NCBI RefSeq assembly: GCF_002915595.1
Contig: NZ_PQGG01000007.1
Coordinates: 124,001 to 188,000, forward strand
Source of the DNA: Zhongshania marina
GTDB taxonomy: Bacteria; Pseudomonadota; Gammaproteobacteria; Pseudomonadales; Spongiibacteraceae
DNA length: 64,000 nt
Direction of reading: 5' to 3'
Every line of letters starts with the position of its first letter. Position 1 is the stretch's first letter. The notes below the pieces were generated by a model, which was not told the origin of the DNA, did not search any database, and saw nothing but the letters and a program-made list of their open reading frames with translations. Shown here one piece after another: positions 12,155-16,905 of this stretch. Position numbers and translations under genes: made by a program.

Positions 12155-12172
12155 AGGCGCCTTTCGGCGCCT
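12155..12172 (-). terminator. intrinsic terminator of the TonB receptor gene
   Basis: AGGCGCC/GGCGCCT stem of seven pairs with a four-base loop, followed on the minus strand by a run of six T. The gene at 12213 reads into it; the plus-strand TPR gene ends 20 bases away and may use the same hairpin less efficiently. Confidence 0.88.
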
Positions 12173-12212: not shown

Positions 12213-14852
12213 TCAGTATTTCCAGCTCAAACTTAGACCAACACTTGTGCCTACTTCTTGCTCAAGTATTTTTACATTAGTACCCGAACTGTTCTTCTGT
12301 TCAAACTCGCGACTAGAATCCAGCAAGTTCGTCAGCTTCACTTTTAATGACAAATTTTCGGTTGGGTAGTAATTATAAATCAGATCTAAAGAACCAAATG
12401 GCTGCTCAAACGCATCATCATTACCCGAAGTACCTGCAAAGAATATGCGCTCACTAGACACGTTATACAGCAGAGAAGCACTGTGGCGCTCATCTGGCGA
12501 ATCGTAACCAAGCGATGCGTTAACAACGTATTTAGAGTGACCCGTTAGGCGACGGTCGGTATTTGTTACTTCGTTATTGCTGGTGATCGAAATTTCCGAA
12601 TCACTTAGCGTCACATTACCCGACAAGAAGAAGCCTGCTGGCAAGGTTTTTAAACCCTCAAACTCCACGCCGTAAACTTCACCGGAATCACCGTTGATAT
12701 AGCGCAATACGGTATCATCATCTGAGCCCGCGCCTTCAACCTGTTCAATTGGCAGATCTAAGTCTTTGTAGAACAGCGACACGGTAAAATTGTCACCGCC
12801 TTCATAGTAAAACTCGCCGCGCAAATCGTAGTTACGGATCTCGGTAGATTTCAGCGCCGGATTACCAAACACCCGCACACTTAGCTCTGGATCAATATAA
12901 GCGACATCTGCGAGCTCACGTAAATCTGGGCGAACAACGGTATCACTAACACTAAAGCGCACTTGAAATTCTTCTGCCCCAATCAAGCCCAAGCCTGAAT
13001 AGGTAAGCGCAAAACTCGAATAAATATCGTCATTCTGGAAAGCAAATGTTTGATCTGGATCCTGAAGCTGATTAATCAATTGCTGATTAAAGACGCCGGT
13101 ATAGTCGAGCAAGTTAACAGGCAATACCGCTTGCTGATATTCTTCCCAGCGTGCCCCTACCGTCAAACGCCACTCTTCGGTCATACGAAAATCTAGGCCG
13201 CCGTATACCGCAGAAATTTTCTGCGCAGCAACATAACTTTCGTTACCAAAACCAGATCCCATCGAGATATCAAATACATTATTCAAGTCGTTGATGCGAT
13301 CATCCGTAAATACCGTTTGCGGCGTGCCAACCGTTGCATTGGTACCAACATTGGCGGTGTAGCCATAGTACTCACGAGATTTTTCAGAATTCCACCAACC
13401 GCCGGAAACAGTGAGCTCACGGCCATCGATATCAATTGGCAATTCCGCTCGTCCACCCCAGCTTTCCACATTATCTTCTAGCGACAAAAAGGCGAACTGA
13501 CCCGCGGTAGATGATTGTGAAATAAAGGGAGTTTCTGGCGATGTTGTTCTATCGATAGAGCCAGAGAATGTTGTTGCATTTGGAATTTCTGTGGTCGCCT
13601 GCGCGTCTGAGTAAAACCAATCTAAACTCAGCATTTCAAGCGCTTCGATGGGTGAAAATTCACCCAAGCGGTGCTTGCCAGACAATTGGGTTAATTCCAA
13701 TTCGCGCTCTTCTAAGCGCGTTACGTAATCCACATCTGGACGATTCTCAGACGCTGGGTTGTTGTTACTAAACCCTGTCGTTATACGTGCTTCGTCCGCA
13801 TCGTTTTGAATGAGGTAGTGGCTAAGCTGCAGGGTATTGTCATTTGCGTATTCCGCACCTAACACAATCGCCAAGGTTGTGCGCTCCTCGTAAACAGTTC
13901 TATCTACATTCGAAAAACTGTCATTCGGACTACCGATACTGCGCTTAACTTGGTTTTTATTGCGGTATTCTTCGTCGTAAGCACCGCTTATAGAAGCGCC
14001 TAAAACAAGATCATCGCTCACATCCCATGCGTTTCCAAGATCAACTTTAATATCGCGATCGGGATCAAGACTAGATTTTTTAATACCGACATTGGGATTC
14101 AGCGAGCGAATTAAGTTGCGCTGAATTTGCTCAGCCTCGTCGCGAGAAATTCCATTTCCTGCGTCATTTTCTACATCAAGAATATTGCTTTGTGACAAAT
14201 CGCCTTTGTAGCGATCAATCGCGCCAGACAAAGCCTTGGGCATTGATCCACCGCTGCTAGCATAAGTCAGACCGTCATCGCTCTCGGTATTTAATCCAGT
14301 GCCAATACTTACTGCGGCAACCGGCCCCGTAGGAACACTGCGGGTACGGATATCAATCGCACCACCACCAAAGTTAGCTGGCAACTCTGGGCCCCAAGAT
14401 TTTTGTACCTTTAGCGATTCAACAATACTCGAGGGGAACAAATCCAGCGGAATAACACTGCGCGCCAAATCAGGTGAAGGAACCGCCGCGCCGTTAACAG
14501 TCACATTGCTGTATCGCTCGCCAAGGCCTCGAATATAAATAAATTTATTGTCTACTAGCGTCACGCCGGTAACACGGCGCAGCGCAGCGCCAATGGTACT
14601 ATCACCAGCGCGAGAGATGGCTTCAAAGCCAAGGAAGTCTGCAGAATAAGGTAATTCTAGACGTTCGTCAGTTAACGAGGCCGCTACACTTTGTAGCCTA
14701 CCGACCACAACCACTTCTTCTAGTGCGATGGGGCGAAACTGGTCACTGTCATCTGACGCGTCGCTCTGGGCAAATGCGTAGCTCATTAGCCCGCTGCTTG
14801 CCAACGCTACCGCTATTGGAAGCTGCTTTCGCGCAAATCGTTTAGTTAGCAT
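12213..14852 (-). CDS. TonB-dependent outer-membrane receptor
   Basis: An 879-residue receptor. A signal peptide covers about residues 1-28 (FARKQLPIAVALASSGLMSYAFA). The plug domain follows (about 45-180: EEVVVVGR, then ADFLGFEAISRAGDSTIGAALRRVTGVTLVDNKFIYIRGLGERYSNVTVNG), and the rest is a 22-strand-type barrel ending in a C-terminal aromatic (LSLSWKY). It imports a large or scarce solute across the outer membrane using TonB energy. The start at 14852 has AGGA 8 bases before it; the ATG at 14858 is too close to that site. It lies 113 bases after the beta-helix lipoprotein gene on the same strand, with hairpins but no clear terminator between, so both should respond to the Pho-box promoter at 16718-16773. 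The substrate is unknown; a phosphorus compound is the inference from the promoter. Confidence 0.93.
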   Translation of the reverse strand: MLTKRFARKQLPIAVALASSGLMSYAFAQSDASDDSDQFRPIALEEVVVVGRLQSVAASLTDERLELPYSADFLGFEAISRAGDSTIGAALRRVTGVTLVDNKFIYIRGLGERYSNVTVNGAAVPSPDLARSVIPLDLFPSSIVESLKVQKSWGPELPANFGGGAIDIRTRSVPTGPVAAVSIGTGLNTESDDGLTYASSGGSMPKALSGAIDRYKGDLSQSNILDVENDAGNGISRDEAEQIQRNLIRSLNPNVGIKKSSLDPDRDIKVDLGNAWDVSDDLVLGASISGAYDEEYRNKNQVKRSIGSPNDSFSNVDRTVYEERTTLAIVLGAEYANDNTLQLSHYLIQNDADEARITTGFSNNNPASENRPDVDYVTRLEERELELTQLSGKHRLGEFSPIEALEMLSLDWFYSDAQATTEIPNATTFSGSIDRTTSPETPFISQSSTAGQFAFLSLEDNVESWGGRAELPIDIDGRELTVSGGWWNSEKSREYYGYTANVGTNATVGTPQTVFTDDRINDLNNVFDISMGSGFGNESYVAAQKISAVYGGLDFRMTEEWRLTVGARWEEYQQAVLPVNLLDYTGVFNQQLINQLQDPDQTFAFQNDDIYSSFALTYSGLGLIGAEEFQVRFSVSDTVVRPDLRELADVAYIDPELSVRVFGNPALKSTEIRNYDLRGEFYYEGGDNFTVSLFYKDLDLPIEQVEGAGSDDDTVLRYINGDSGEVYGVEFEGLKTLPAGFFLSGNVTLSDSEISITSNNEVTNTDRRLTGHSKYVVNASLGYDSPDERHSASLLYNVSSERIFFAGTSGNDDAFEQPFGSLDLIYNYYPTENLSLKVKLTNLLDSSREFEQKNSSGTNVKILEQEVGTSVGLSLSWKY

Positions 14853-14880
14853 AATCATAATCCTAAGTGCTCAGGAAAAT

Positions 14881-14934
14881 GCTCTCACGAGCGGAGAGCG
14901 TTCTAGCGCTGTTACTGACGGGCCGAAGCCCGTC
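14881..14934 (-). promoter_or_regulatory. two intercistronic hairpins between lipoprotein and TonB receptor genes
   Basis: GACGGGC/GCCCGTC with loop CGAA on the plus strand (14917-14934) and GCTCTC/GAGAGC with a seven-base loop (14881-14899). On the transcribed minus strand neither is followed by a T-run, so they look more like mRNA-stability or processing elements than terminators. They could set different expression of the two proteins. Confidence 0.5.
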
Positions 14935-14965
14935 TTTCCTGTTTTACAGGGTATTGCCGTATAAC

Positions 14966-16660
14966 TTAGGGATTAAGTGGAGCGCTTAAACCTACAGTCC
15001 AACCAGCCAACCAGTCATCGCTTGCGCTGGCGCCGCCCAGGTAGCTAGGCTTTTTGAAGTATGAGTTCACTGCAGATACGTCGGTTAGATCGGCAGCTTG
15101 ATTAAACGCTGGCGTTCCATCTGCCTTGGTAATAGTTGCCGCTGTCTTATATCCGCGAGTACCAACACCACCGACGATCAGGCTTTGAGCTGGAATATCT
15201 GTACCAGTAAGCACTACGTTCTTGACGTTATCATTCGCAGGAGTATCCGCATTGACACCACCGCCGTTTAACCAGTTTGCTAGATCAAACGAGCCCTTTG
15301 TCGCGTCGCCGCTCACTTTCAATGGTTCGCTACATGCAATCAAGTTACTGCTCGCCTTACTCACTTTAGCTTGTGCAGCGTCGATAGTTTGTGGACCTTC
15401 TGTATCGTCCAACTCAACACACTCGTTACTCGCCATATCTACAGCGTTAGAAGTGACGATTGAGTTATACATTTGGAAGAAGGCACCTTCGCGGAACAAT
15501 GGCCCTTCCGAGTCACCTTTAGACGTTGCGTTAATACCGCCGTTTTGATCAATATTCGAGGTGATACAAGTCATGTTCGAGATGATCAGATTAGTTGTTG
15601 GCGTAATACCATCGCCGCGGCCTTCACCGGTGTTATCGCCTTCGATACAGCGGTTAGAACCTGAGGTGTGAACAACCACAGCATATTGGATCATGCCGTT
15701 GTAGCCTTCAGAGTAATCGATTGAGTCGTCACCCACGTTCACAGCCACTAAGTGATCTGCATTTGCCGCGCCACCAAAGAATTCAAAACCGTCATCTTTA
15801 GATGTGTACGCTTGAAGATAACTTAGGGTCGTGCCGCTACCAACGCCATTAAATGTGAAGGCATTCAGCTCATTGCCGTCAACAACTTCGAAACCTGCGT
15901 GTTTCACAACTACATATTTCATTACACCAGAACTCTCAGCGTTGTTGTTACCGCCGTAAGTAGCTGGCTGACCTTCCGCTTCTTGGTGACAGTTGTGCGG
16001 ATTATTTGAGGTTGCAGAGAAATCACTCACTGAACCAGTACCTGAACCAGTTGCAGTACCGTCATGACACTTGTTGGTCATGCCATTACCGTTAATTTGC
16101 AAACCGCCCCACAAACCACGATCGTCTTCAGTTGCAAAGCCATCAATGTCTTCATCGGCAGTGAAGATGATTGGCGCCGTCGCAGTACCATTTGCGAAAA
16201 TTTGTGAGCCGCGAGTTATACGCACATAGCTATTTTCGTTTTTAAATACCATCGTTACACCAGCTTCAATATTCAGCTTGGTGCCTTGGCCTTCCTGTAA
16301 AACTGGCGTTCCTGACGCGGCAGCTTGGCCGTCTACGTCTTCGCCTATAAACAAACTGCCATCAAACTCATGCACACCAGGAATAGCAGCAAATGTTACT
16401 TGATCAGCAGTAATAGGATTATTCGCACTCACAAATGAGCTGCTGTATGAGCAGTCACCAGATGAATACGTACCTTGTACCGTAGAGCCATTTTTAACGT
16501 ATGACGCGCAGGGGTTATTAGTGCCGCCACCATTGTTACCACCGTTAGAACCACCGGTGCTGTTATCGACAGTTGTAGGGTTTAGATTAATATCGCCACC
16601 ACCACATGCCGCCAGTAACAAGGCAGATGACATTGCTGTCAGTGCAAAAAGCTTTTTCAT
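14966..16660 (-). CDS. beta-helix-type surface or periplasmic lipoprotein, partner of the TonB receptor
   Basis: A 564-residue lipoprotein: MKKLFALTAMSSALLLAAC carries the lipobox LAAC followed by a GGGD and Asn/Gly/Thr linker. The body shows repeated short strands typical of a right-handed parallel beta-helix (GTKLNIEAGVTMVFKNENSYVRITRGS, GLWGGLQINGNG, KDDGFEFFGGAANADHLVAVNVGDDSIDYSEG). It has several cysteine pairs (for example near NKCHDG and HNCHQ) and many Asp residues that could bind Ca2+. No catalytic signature was recognised. The start at 16660 has GGAG 9-12 bases upstream; a longer frame to 16681 lacks one. It is the first gene after tandem Pho boxes and is followed by a TonB receptor, so it is probably a substrate-binding or processing partner for phosphate-stress nutrient uptake. 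That role is inference. Confidence 0.8.
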   Translation of the reverse strand: MKKLFALTAMSSALLLAACGGGDINLNPTTVDNSTGGSNGGNNGGGTNNPCASYVKNGSTVQGTYSSGDCSYSSSFVSANNPITADQVTFAAIPGVHEFDGSLFIGEDVDGQAAASGTPVLQEGQGTKLNIEAGVTMVFKNENSYVRITRGSQIFANGTATAPIIFTADEDIDGFATEDDRGLWGGLQINGNGMTNKCHDGTATGSGTGSVSDFSATSNNPHNCHQEAEGQPATYGGNNNAESSGVMKYVVVKHAGFEVVDGNELNAFTFNGVGSGTTLSYLQAYTSKDDGFEFFGGAANADHLVAVNVGDDSIDYSEGYNGMIQYAVVVHTSGSNRCIEGDNTGEGRGDGITPTTNLIISNMTCITSNIDQNGGINATSKGDSEGPLFREGAFFQMYNSIVTSNAVDMASNECVELDDTEGPQTIDAAQAKVSKASSNLIACSEPLKVSGDATKGSFDLANWLNGGGVNADTPANDNVKNVVLTGTDIPAQSLIVGGVGTRGYKTAATITKADGTPAFNQAADLTDVSAVNSYFKKPSYLGGASASDDWLAGWTVGLSAPLNP

Positions 16661-16717
16661 ATTTACTATCTCCGAAACCAACTCTAAGGATTTTCTAGGA
16701 TTGAATTTATGTAGCGT

Positions 16718-16773
16718 ATGGTAGGGAGACTTGGTGACAGATATGTGAATAGTATGTTTCAGTTATGTGACAA
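16718..16773 (-). promoter_or_regulatory. tandem Pho boxes and -10 box upstream of the lipoprotein/TonB operon
   Basis: Read on the minus strand from 16773, four 7-mers stand at exact 11-base spacing: TTGTCAC, CTGAAAC, TATTCAC, CTGTCAC, separated by the AT-rich spacers ATAA, ATAC and ATAT. This is the layout of two consecutive PhoB sites (two CTGTCAT-like repeats with four bases between). The 7-mers match CTGTCAT at 5, 4, 3 and 6 of 7 positions. Ten bases after the last repeat is TACCAT (16723-16718), a fair -10 box at the distance seen in E. coli Pho promoters, with no separate -35. The ATG is at 16660. PhoB activation under phosphate limitation is predicted. Confidence 0.8.
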
Positions 16774-16877: not shown

Positions 16878-16905
16878 AAAATGCCGCTGAAAGCAGCGGC
16901 ATTTT
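16878..16905 (-). terminator. intrinsic terminator of purA
   Basis: An 11-base perfect stem AAAATGCCGCT/AGCGGCATTTT with loop GAAAGC on the plus strand. On the minus strand it ends in TTTTTG, 18 bases beyond the purA stop. Confidence 0.92.

Follow-up and report, generated by a model that had tools for sequence, protein, structure and literature searches.

A probable PhoB-type promoter upstream of a likely ElpS-type lipoprotein gene and a TonB-dependent receptor gene in Zhongshania marina

Two described systems combine a lipoprotein that responds to phosphate starvation with a TonB-dependent receptor. The available excerpts of a study of Caulobacter crescentus (PMC2996285) describe ElpS (CC0170), a low-phosphate-induced lipoprotein encoded beside the TonB receptor CC0171. 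Overproduction of ElpS raised phosphatase activity, ElpS itself had none, and deletion of elpS left alkaline phosphatase activity unchanged; cc0171 was reported, as data not shown in that source, to be expressed constitutively, apart from elpS. Excerpts of work on Flavobacterium johnsoniae (PMC8115612) report that low phosphate strongly induces three lipoproteins, FI, FII and FIII, with 31-36% identity to the Caulobacter protein over 50-54%. FI and FII are beside TonB receptors (PUSIII and PUSIV), and FII is in a phoBR cluster with OprP. PhoB has further been described, in excerpts of a third source, as controlling the type II secretion system (T2SS) and several TonB receptors in Caulobacter (PMC11208175). 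Here, we analysed a 64,000-nucleotide stretch of Zhongshania marina DNA, the whole of which is termed the window, in which a predicted tandem Pho-box array precedes a lipoprotein gene and a TonB-dependent receptor gene, and we compared this locus with the described systems. The relevant features are as follows.

16734..16773, minus strand: probable tandem Pho (PhoB) boxes, four 7-mers (sequence, pst-derived matrix, array kept in family homologs)
16718..16723, minus strand: -10 box TACCAT, exactly 10 bases past the last Pho unit
16667..16670, minus strand: GGAG, likely ribosome-binding site ahead of the ATG at 16657 (sequence; GGAG-containing stretch in the homolog alignment)
14966..16657, minus strand: likely ElpS-type lipoprotein of 563 residues with a lipobox signal peptide (Cys18) and a predicted right-handed parallel beta-helix (translation, model)
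14859..14965, minus strand: intergenic region of 107 bases with two GC-rich hairpins (folding, terminator scan)
12213..14858, minus strand: TonB-dependent receptor of 881 residues (PF00593, 3.5e-23; PF07715, 1.8e-8)

As the initial annotation had described, the site consists of tandem repeats in an exact 11-base register with AT-rich spacers and a -10 box ten bases further on; the units are unequal. On the minus strand, these units are TTGTCAC (16773-16767), CTGAAAC (16762-16756), TATTCAC (16751-16745) and CTGTCAC (16740-16734), separated by ATAA, ATAC and ATAT, and the ten bases CAAGTCTCCC stand between the last unit and TACCAT. Against a matrix derived from pst promoters, units 1 to 4 scored 10.3, 5.1, -0.5 and 10.3 bits, respectively, such that two are strong, one is middling and one is poor. 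Similar forms of the weak inner units occur in many close relatives. A promoter scan found no match to a sigma-70 -35/-10 pair at the site. The CTGTCAT-like 7-mers in 11-base steps and the -10 box approximately 10 bases after the last unit correspond to a PhoB promoter, and it is very likely that the site is of this type and under Pho control.

Training of the Pho matrix drew on pstS and pstC promoters from Z. marina and its relatives (24 sites, 61 units). Training sites were chosen by eye; identical and near-identical sites were left out, as were pstC upstream regions without a clear three-unit array (L070, L073, L074, L075, L079) and L083. The background comprised the window and 20 sampled 20-kb stretches (464 kb, both strands), representing ∼11% of the genome, with the pst/phoB cluster outside the sample. 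The four-unit score of the site was 33.1 bits as compared to 4.85 bits for the next independent site. These values place the site at the top of the sample, far above background, and support the initial assignment to PhoB from sequence. The pair score at the site, 19.3, was also the highest of the sample. The second-best pair (17.5; C44:17811-17890) adjoins a PhoD gene, an unplanned check of the matrix. The genome's own phoB promoter, which was outside the training set, had a best pair of 26.7, and its pstC promoter, inside the training set, scored 37.0 over three units. The own pstS promoter carries the same motif as the site.

A very improbable alternative is that the repeats arose by chance or serve another regulator with a similar motif. 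The negative score of unit 3 would fit this explanation, as would the frequency of a loose two-unit pattern allowing two mismatches, which was no commoner in the whole genome (350 + 321 matches) than its reversed control (368 + 362); the exact double CTGTCAC pattern had no match in the genome. Because the two-unit pattern was at control level, the signal is carried by the periodic array, not by a single pair. Arguing against chance or another regulator are the score of the array relative to its background, the occurrence of the same motif at the own phoB and pst promoters, and the retention of spacing and -10 offset in distant relatives, described below.

Other candidate Pho sites were seen in the same genome. 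At C44:13952-18351 (L105), Pho-like repeats on both strands lie between opposing genes: one strand carries the PhoD gene and a gene for a metallophosphatase-like lipoprotein, the other a small lipoprotein-like gene. C12:70540-70557 (L097:10540-10557) holds CTGTCAACGAACTGTCAC, with TAACGT ten bases further on; shortly downstream is a gene for a TonB-receptor-like protein of 737 residues, only distantly similar to the window receptor, which is perhaps another Pho-controlled receptor. An exact tandem TGTCAT-TGTCAC pair occurs at C14:41043-41059 (L032), with no open reading frame (ORF) of at least 120 residues on the same strand in the next 850 bases.

The array recurs in relatives, a check that the initial annotation had proposed. 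Among 21 genomes of the family, 20 encode a lipoprotein homolog with a complete frame of 556-583 residues; only a signal-less paralog was recovered from the 21st (84% complete, 7% contaminated). Relative to the window protein, the homologs fall into two types, 66-98% identical (11 besides the window's own) and 38-48% identical (7), and the Pho promoter is common to both. The upstream DNA of the family diverges, with the Pho repeats and the -10 box largely retained. More specifically, in all 20 homologs TAnnnT follows the last unit at a distance of exactly 10 bases, the last unit having been picked by score within the 11-base register and not by the -10 box. The homologs are not all at one locus: purA is upstream in L022, as in the window, and a porin gene in L016. 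The latter gene (L016:3169-4416), in this one relative, encodes a phosphate-selective porin O/P (Porin_O_P, PF07396, 3.8e-63) and is divergent from the lipoprotein gene.

The distant set comprised the best 80 of at least 572 relatives found in a contig scan, mostly from Gamma- and Alphaproteobacteria; the closest named match among the matches listed was Spongiibacter thalassae (68%). These loci are interrelated and ranked by similarity rather than randomly sampled, and the figures drawn from them are therefore not independent trials. Of 78 loci with upstream DNA (all but L179 and L183), 69 had a Pho site at a local p of 0.05 or better relative to random stretches of the same locus. In 75 upstream regions, excluding L159, L166, L168, L179 and L183 for an unclear lipoprotein start or no upstream DNA, the median pst-matrix score was 15.9 bits on the forward strand and 3.7 on the opposite strand. 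The corresponding medians for 36 representatives at 60% identity were 14.4 and 0.4 (Wilcoxon 3e-8, relatedness not modelled). With the true matrix, 17/36 representatives reached 15 bits, as compared to 0 or 1/36 with column-permuted matrices. When spacers of 0-11 were scanned in these representatives, a signal was obtained at 4 only (median of 14.7 versus 1.6-5.3 elsewhere), and at least 13 bits were reached by 24/36 at this spacer versus 0-3 at others. Finally, TAnnnT was at offset 10 in 24 of the 56 distant loci with a pair of at least 12 bits, where ∼0.9 are expected per offset; the next commonest offset was 21, one repeat further (5/56).

The same gene pair follows these promoters, in keeping with the initial annotation: a receptor homolog is downstream of the lipoprotein gene in 75 of the 80 loci. 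Of the five in which it was not found, L151, L174 and L185 end within the lipoprotein gene, L168 has ∼750 bases left and L175 has full flanks; the receptor of L146 and the lipoprotein of L159 are split over several frames. A match to PhoR, or to PstB with PhoU, occurs within flanks of up to 5 kb in 16/80 loci (14/80 without two PhoR matches of 35% identity). According to domain checks, the gene order in L152 (Aliiglaciecola) is phoB-phoR-pstS-2-oxoglutarate (2OG) oxygenase-lipoprotein-receptor, and L169 (Kordiimonas) has an ATP-binding cassette (ABC)-ATPase/phoU pair upstream. In the Aliiglaciecola locus, the oxygenase gene that separates pstS from the lipoprotein gene (L152:3884-4717) encodes a 2OG-Fe(II) enzyme.

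In eight alphaproteobacterial loci, Phenylobacterium included, the pair stands before a GspD homolog, and GspC was matched in five of the eight; these loci match the cc0170-cc0171-gspC order reported in the excerpts on Caulobacter (PMC2996285). The Phenylobacterium lipoprotein (L186; 31% identity, 5e-50) has a secretin-domain protein downstream of its receptor. Through this Caulobacteraceae homolog in the elpS position, rather than through an alignment to CC0170, the window lipoprotein is likely kin to ElpS. Unlike the Caulobacter genes, the window pair adjoins purA and a tetratricopeptide-repeat (TPR) protein gene and no T2SS genes, an adjacency that we did not take as defining.

Kinship to ElpS raises the explanation proposed for that protein, namely that the lipoprotein boosts secreted alkaline phosphatases as an activator, scaffold or polymer opener. 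The lipoprotein would then be surface-held or released, and the receptor would have a separate part, with no joint import of phosphorus. In favour of such a role, the genome holds two tandem PhoA genes, two PhoD matches, Pho-like repeats beside one phoD and three proteins with a GspD N0 domain. PhoX was not found in it. The PhoA genes are at C39:20283-23673; a near-Pho pair, with one mismatch, lies ∼330 bases ahead of the first of their domain matches. By contrast, the constant partner of the lipoprotein in the 80 homologous loci is the receptor, as GspD was matched in 11/80 and a PhoD homolog in 0/80 (PhoA was not searched for there). Moreover, the elpS deletion had no phosphatase phenotype in the excerpts of the Caulobacter study (PMC2996285). 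We consider an accessory role of this kind unlikely, albeit the strongest of the alternatives.

Cys18 of the lipoprotein is invariant in homolog alignments, the protein has a lipoprotein signal with a lipobox, and 75/80 homologs carry a lipobox-like motif within their first 100 residues. The window lipoprotein matched no Pfam family. Among 25 members searched up to E 1, three families were matched, by one member each (E 0.04-0.09); membership of SusD and of GH28 or pectate-lyase families was rejected, as neither had a match in this search. Pfam scans revealed no carbohydrate-active enzyme domain in the lipoprotein or the receptor, and neither has a phosphatase domain, as the initial annotation had noted. 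By sequence, the lone match of the lipoprotein to a solved structure had E 0.86 and was taken as chance, a profile search gave none, and the receptor had no match. The AlphaFold2 model of the lipoprotein (predicted local distance difference test, pLDDT, 82.3; predicted template modelling score, pTM, 0.86) is a right-handed parallel beta-helix. Foldseek alone returned nothing at E 0.001 for this model; VIA-align on Foldseek candidates yielded Z of 17-22 to alginate epimerases and lyases, polygalacturonases, tailspikes, NosD and autotransporters. These matches point to the fold and to no particular family. The right-handed parallel beta-helix (pectin-lyase fold) stands as the predicted fold, in line with the initial annotation, and a long-form homolog matches PF13229 (Beta_helix) under the cut-off. 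Invariant acidic residues in 25 diverse members include E228, D288, D289, E292, D310, D311, D314 and E339. The 22 residues from D288-D289 to D310-D311 suggest, by their spacing in the sequence, that the two pairs could be stacked on neighbouring turns.

The homologs differ in the number of beta-helix domain copies: 34 of the 80 have two, 5 have three, and 41 are shorter than 800 residues and were counted as single-copy without test. The 39 long lipoproteins of at least 800 residues, from loci L136-L187, have these copies in tandem. A profile of the lipoprotein matched 55/398 sampled genomes of the phylum, 51 at E < 1e-50 and four weakly, among which there may be signal-less paralogs. Such paralogs, of ∼550-590 residues, occur in the Z. 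marina genome (C23:1024-2676; L002) and in relatives; they share the beta-helix region, lack an evident signal peptide and are for this reason perhaps cytoplasmic. In the three loci read (L002, L023, L024), the gene divergent from them was judged by eye to be argH-like.

The second gene encodes a TonB-dependent receptor with plug and barrel domains over the cut-off, in agreement with the gene order given by the initial annotation. Its AlphaFold2 model (pLDDT 83.1) has the TonB-receptor fold. No close paralog was found in the own genome, the next match being at E 9e-6. The best NCBIfam match, TIGR01782 (TonB-Xanth-Caul), reached 184 bits against a cut-off of 310; two homologous receptors scored 205 and 213 bits. 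This family presumably includes carbohydrate receptors, a point in favour of a further alternative: that the genes are Pho-controlled and serve uptake or binding of a non-phosphorus polysaccharide, attachment, or an envelope change in phosphate starvation. Pho regulons include more than uptake genes, and most of the structural neighbours of the beta-helix are polysaccharide lyases, epimerases, hydrolases and tailspikes. Nevertheless, the Pho genes beside the pair in 16/80 loci, the Porin_O_P neighbour in L016 and the lack of carbohydrate-active enzyme domains in either protein argue against a role unconnected with phosphorus, which we regard as doubtful and less probable than the accessory one.

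A terminator scan of the region, which found 10 terminator-like sites versus 5.1 ± 2.6 in shuffles, included two that flank the pair.

16878..16905, minus strand: terminator-like hairpin (12 pairs) downstream of purA and ahead of the Pho promoter
12155..12172, minus strand: terminator-like hairpin past the receptor gene

Because of these hairpins, the pair looks like its own unit, and gene order together with the outer terminators suggests that the lipoprotein and receptor genes are probably co-transcribed. By eye, a GC-rich hairpin is predicted between the two genes in 19 of the 20 homologs, despite variation in sequence; in the 20th (L014), the choice of start cut the intergenic region to 37 nt. 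Folding z-scores of this region were -2 or below in 11/20 homologs and -0.7 to -2 in the other nine. A plausible role of the hairpin, judged from sequence, is as a stabiliser or partial terminator favouring the lipoprotein; were it a full terminator, the receptor would depend on another promoter.

We favour, at a probability of roughly 0.55, the reading that the locus is an ElpS-type unit of two genes, activated by PhoB, that would capture and import a phosphorus compound. In phosphate shortage, PhoB~P would bind the four 11-base repeats, replacing the -35 box, and transcription would start from the -10 box ten bases downstream of the array. The first gene would supply an outer-membrane lipoprotein with a parallel beta-helix and the second its dedicated TonB-dependent receptor; the intergenic hairpin may thin receptor transcripts such that the lipoprotein outnumbers the receptor. 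The lipoprotein would most likely sit at the surface and bind, possibly also trim, an organophosphate or a phosphorus-bearing polymer along its helix, the receptor would import the captured piece, and the PhoA- and PhoD-family phosphatases of the genome would then free phosphate for Pst. We favour this mechanism because of the promoter, its conservation, the gene pairing, the neighbouring Pho genes, the fold kin, many of which bind or cut polysaccharides, the low-phosphate literature and the presence of PhoA and PhoD.

Several observations weigh against capture and import of a phosphorus compound. Besides the relatedness and ranking of the 80 loci, 9/78 upstream regions missed the local p of 0.05, and 19/75 scored less than 12 bits. 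Scores of at least 12 bits occurred on the opposite strand as well, in 18/75 regions, a higher rate than for other ORFs of at least 250 residues in the same loci (20/320), perhaps owing to divergent Pho genes. None of the 80 distant loci had a match to the porin of L016. Function does not follow from a shared fold, and searches gave no match to a catalytic family. The structural neighbours of the receptor are generic (siderophore, heme, copper) and do not narrow its ligand. Finally, the second intergenic hairpin (14899-14881) is terminator-like on the coding strand, between the two genes.

Over large parts of the ocean, growth is limited by phosphorus, a large share of which is tied up in organic matter. 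In the loci examined, the lipoprotein is accompanied by a partner receptor and by a strict Pho promoter, yet it is without a Pfam family or an established ligand. Because the promoter is conserved and the layout compact, with two genes, the question raised by ElpS in 2010 is testable in marine bacteria that are easy to grow. Added here, and not met in the literature searched, are the breadth of the ElpS-type Pho promoter in Gammaproteobacteria, the one to three beta-helix copies per lipoprotein and the hairpins between the lipoprotein and receptor genes. The same literature yielded no report of Pho control in Spongiibacter or Zhongshania. The gammaproteobacterial promoters are unreported only in the sense of not having been found in that literature. 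The available parts of PMC2536512 and PMC1790865 contain nothing on the lipoprotein/receptor pair, and PMC12872454 was rejected as a source on ElpS, since 'elps' occurs there only within DOIs.

The initial annotation had suggested an undescribed route of uptake. In this it was mistaken: ElpS-CC0171 (PMC2996285) and FI/FII (PMC8115612) are, in the excerpts available, described low-phosphate systems of like kind, and the window pair is therefore a new member of a described kind. Like ElpS-CC0171, it has a link to phosphate starvation, and its TonB-receptor gene comes after that of the lipoprotein; unlike that pair, in which cc0171 was reported to be regulated apart from elpS, the window genes seem to share one Pho promoter (PMC2996285, in excerpt). 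FI and FII, which were modelled on polygalacturonase, a beta-helix enzyme, and are next to TonB receptors, resemble it too; they are from Bacteroidota and larger gene clusters, and the likeness is by description, not by sequence (PMC8115612, in excerpt). In the manner in which it may work, the pair is comparable to the SusCD/PusCD systems of Bacteroidota, which likewise have a TonB receptor and a surface lipoprotein in one locus (PMC8115612, in excerpt). In contrast to SusCD, the window lipoprotein, for which a beta-helix is predicted and no Pfam family was matched, is not a SusD protein, and the receptor has plug and barrel domains only. The pair also resembles TbpA-TbpB, a receptor with a surface capture lipoprotein, and TbpA is among the structural matches of the window receptor; TbpB has another fold, and the ligand of TbpA-TbpB is a host protein. 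It is possible, and we put this forward only tentatively, that ElpS-type lipoproteins and their receptors constitute a proteobacterial uptake machine for polymer-bound phosphorus, in which a beta-helix on the cell surface, built from one to three modules, would draw in a polymer carrying phosphate and pass it on to the receptor dedicated to it: a counterpart of SusCD with an unrelated lipoprotein, under PhoB control across Gamma- and Alphaproteobacteria.
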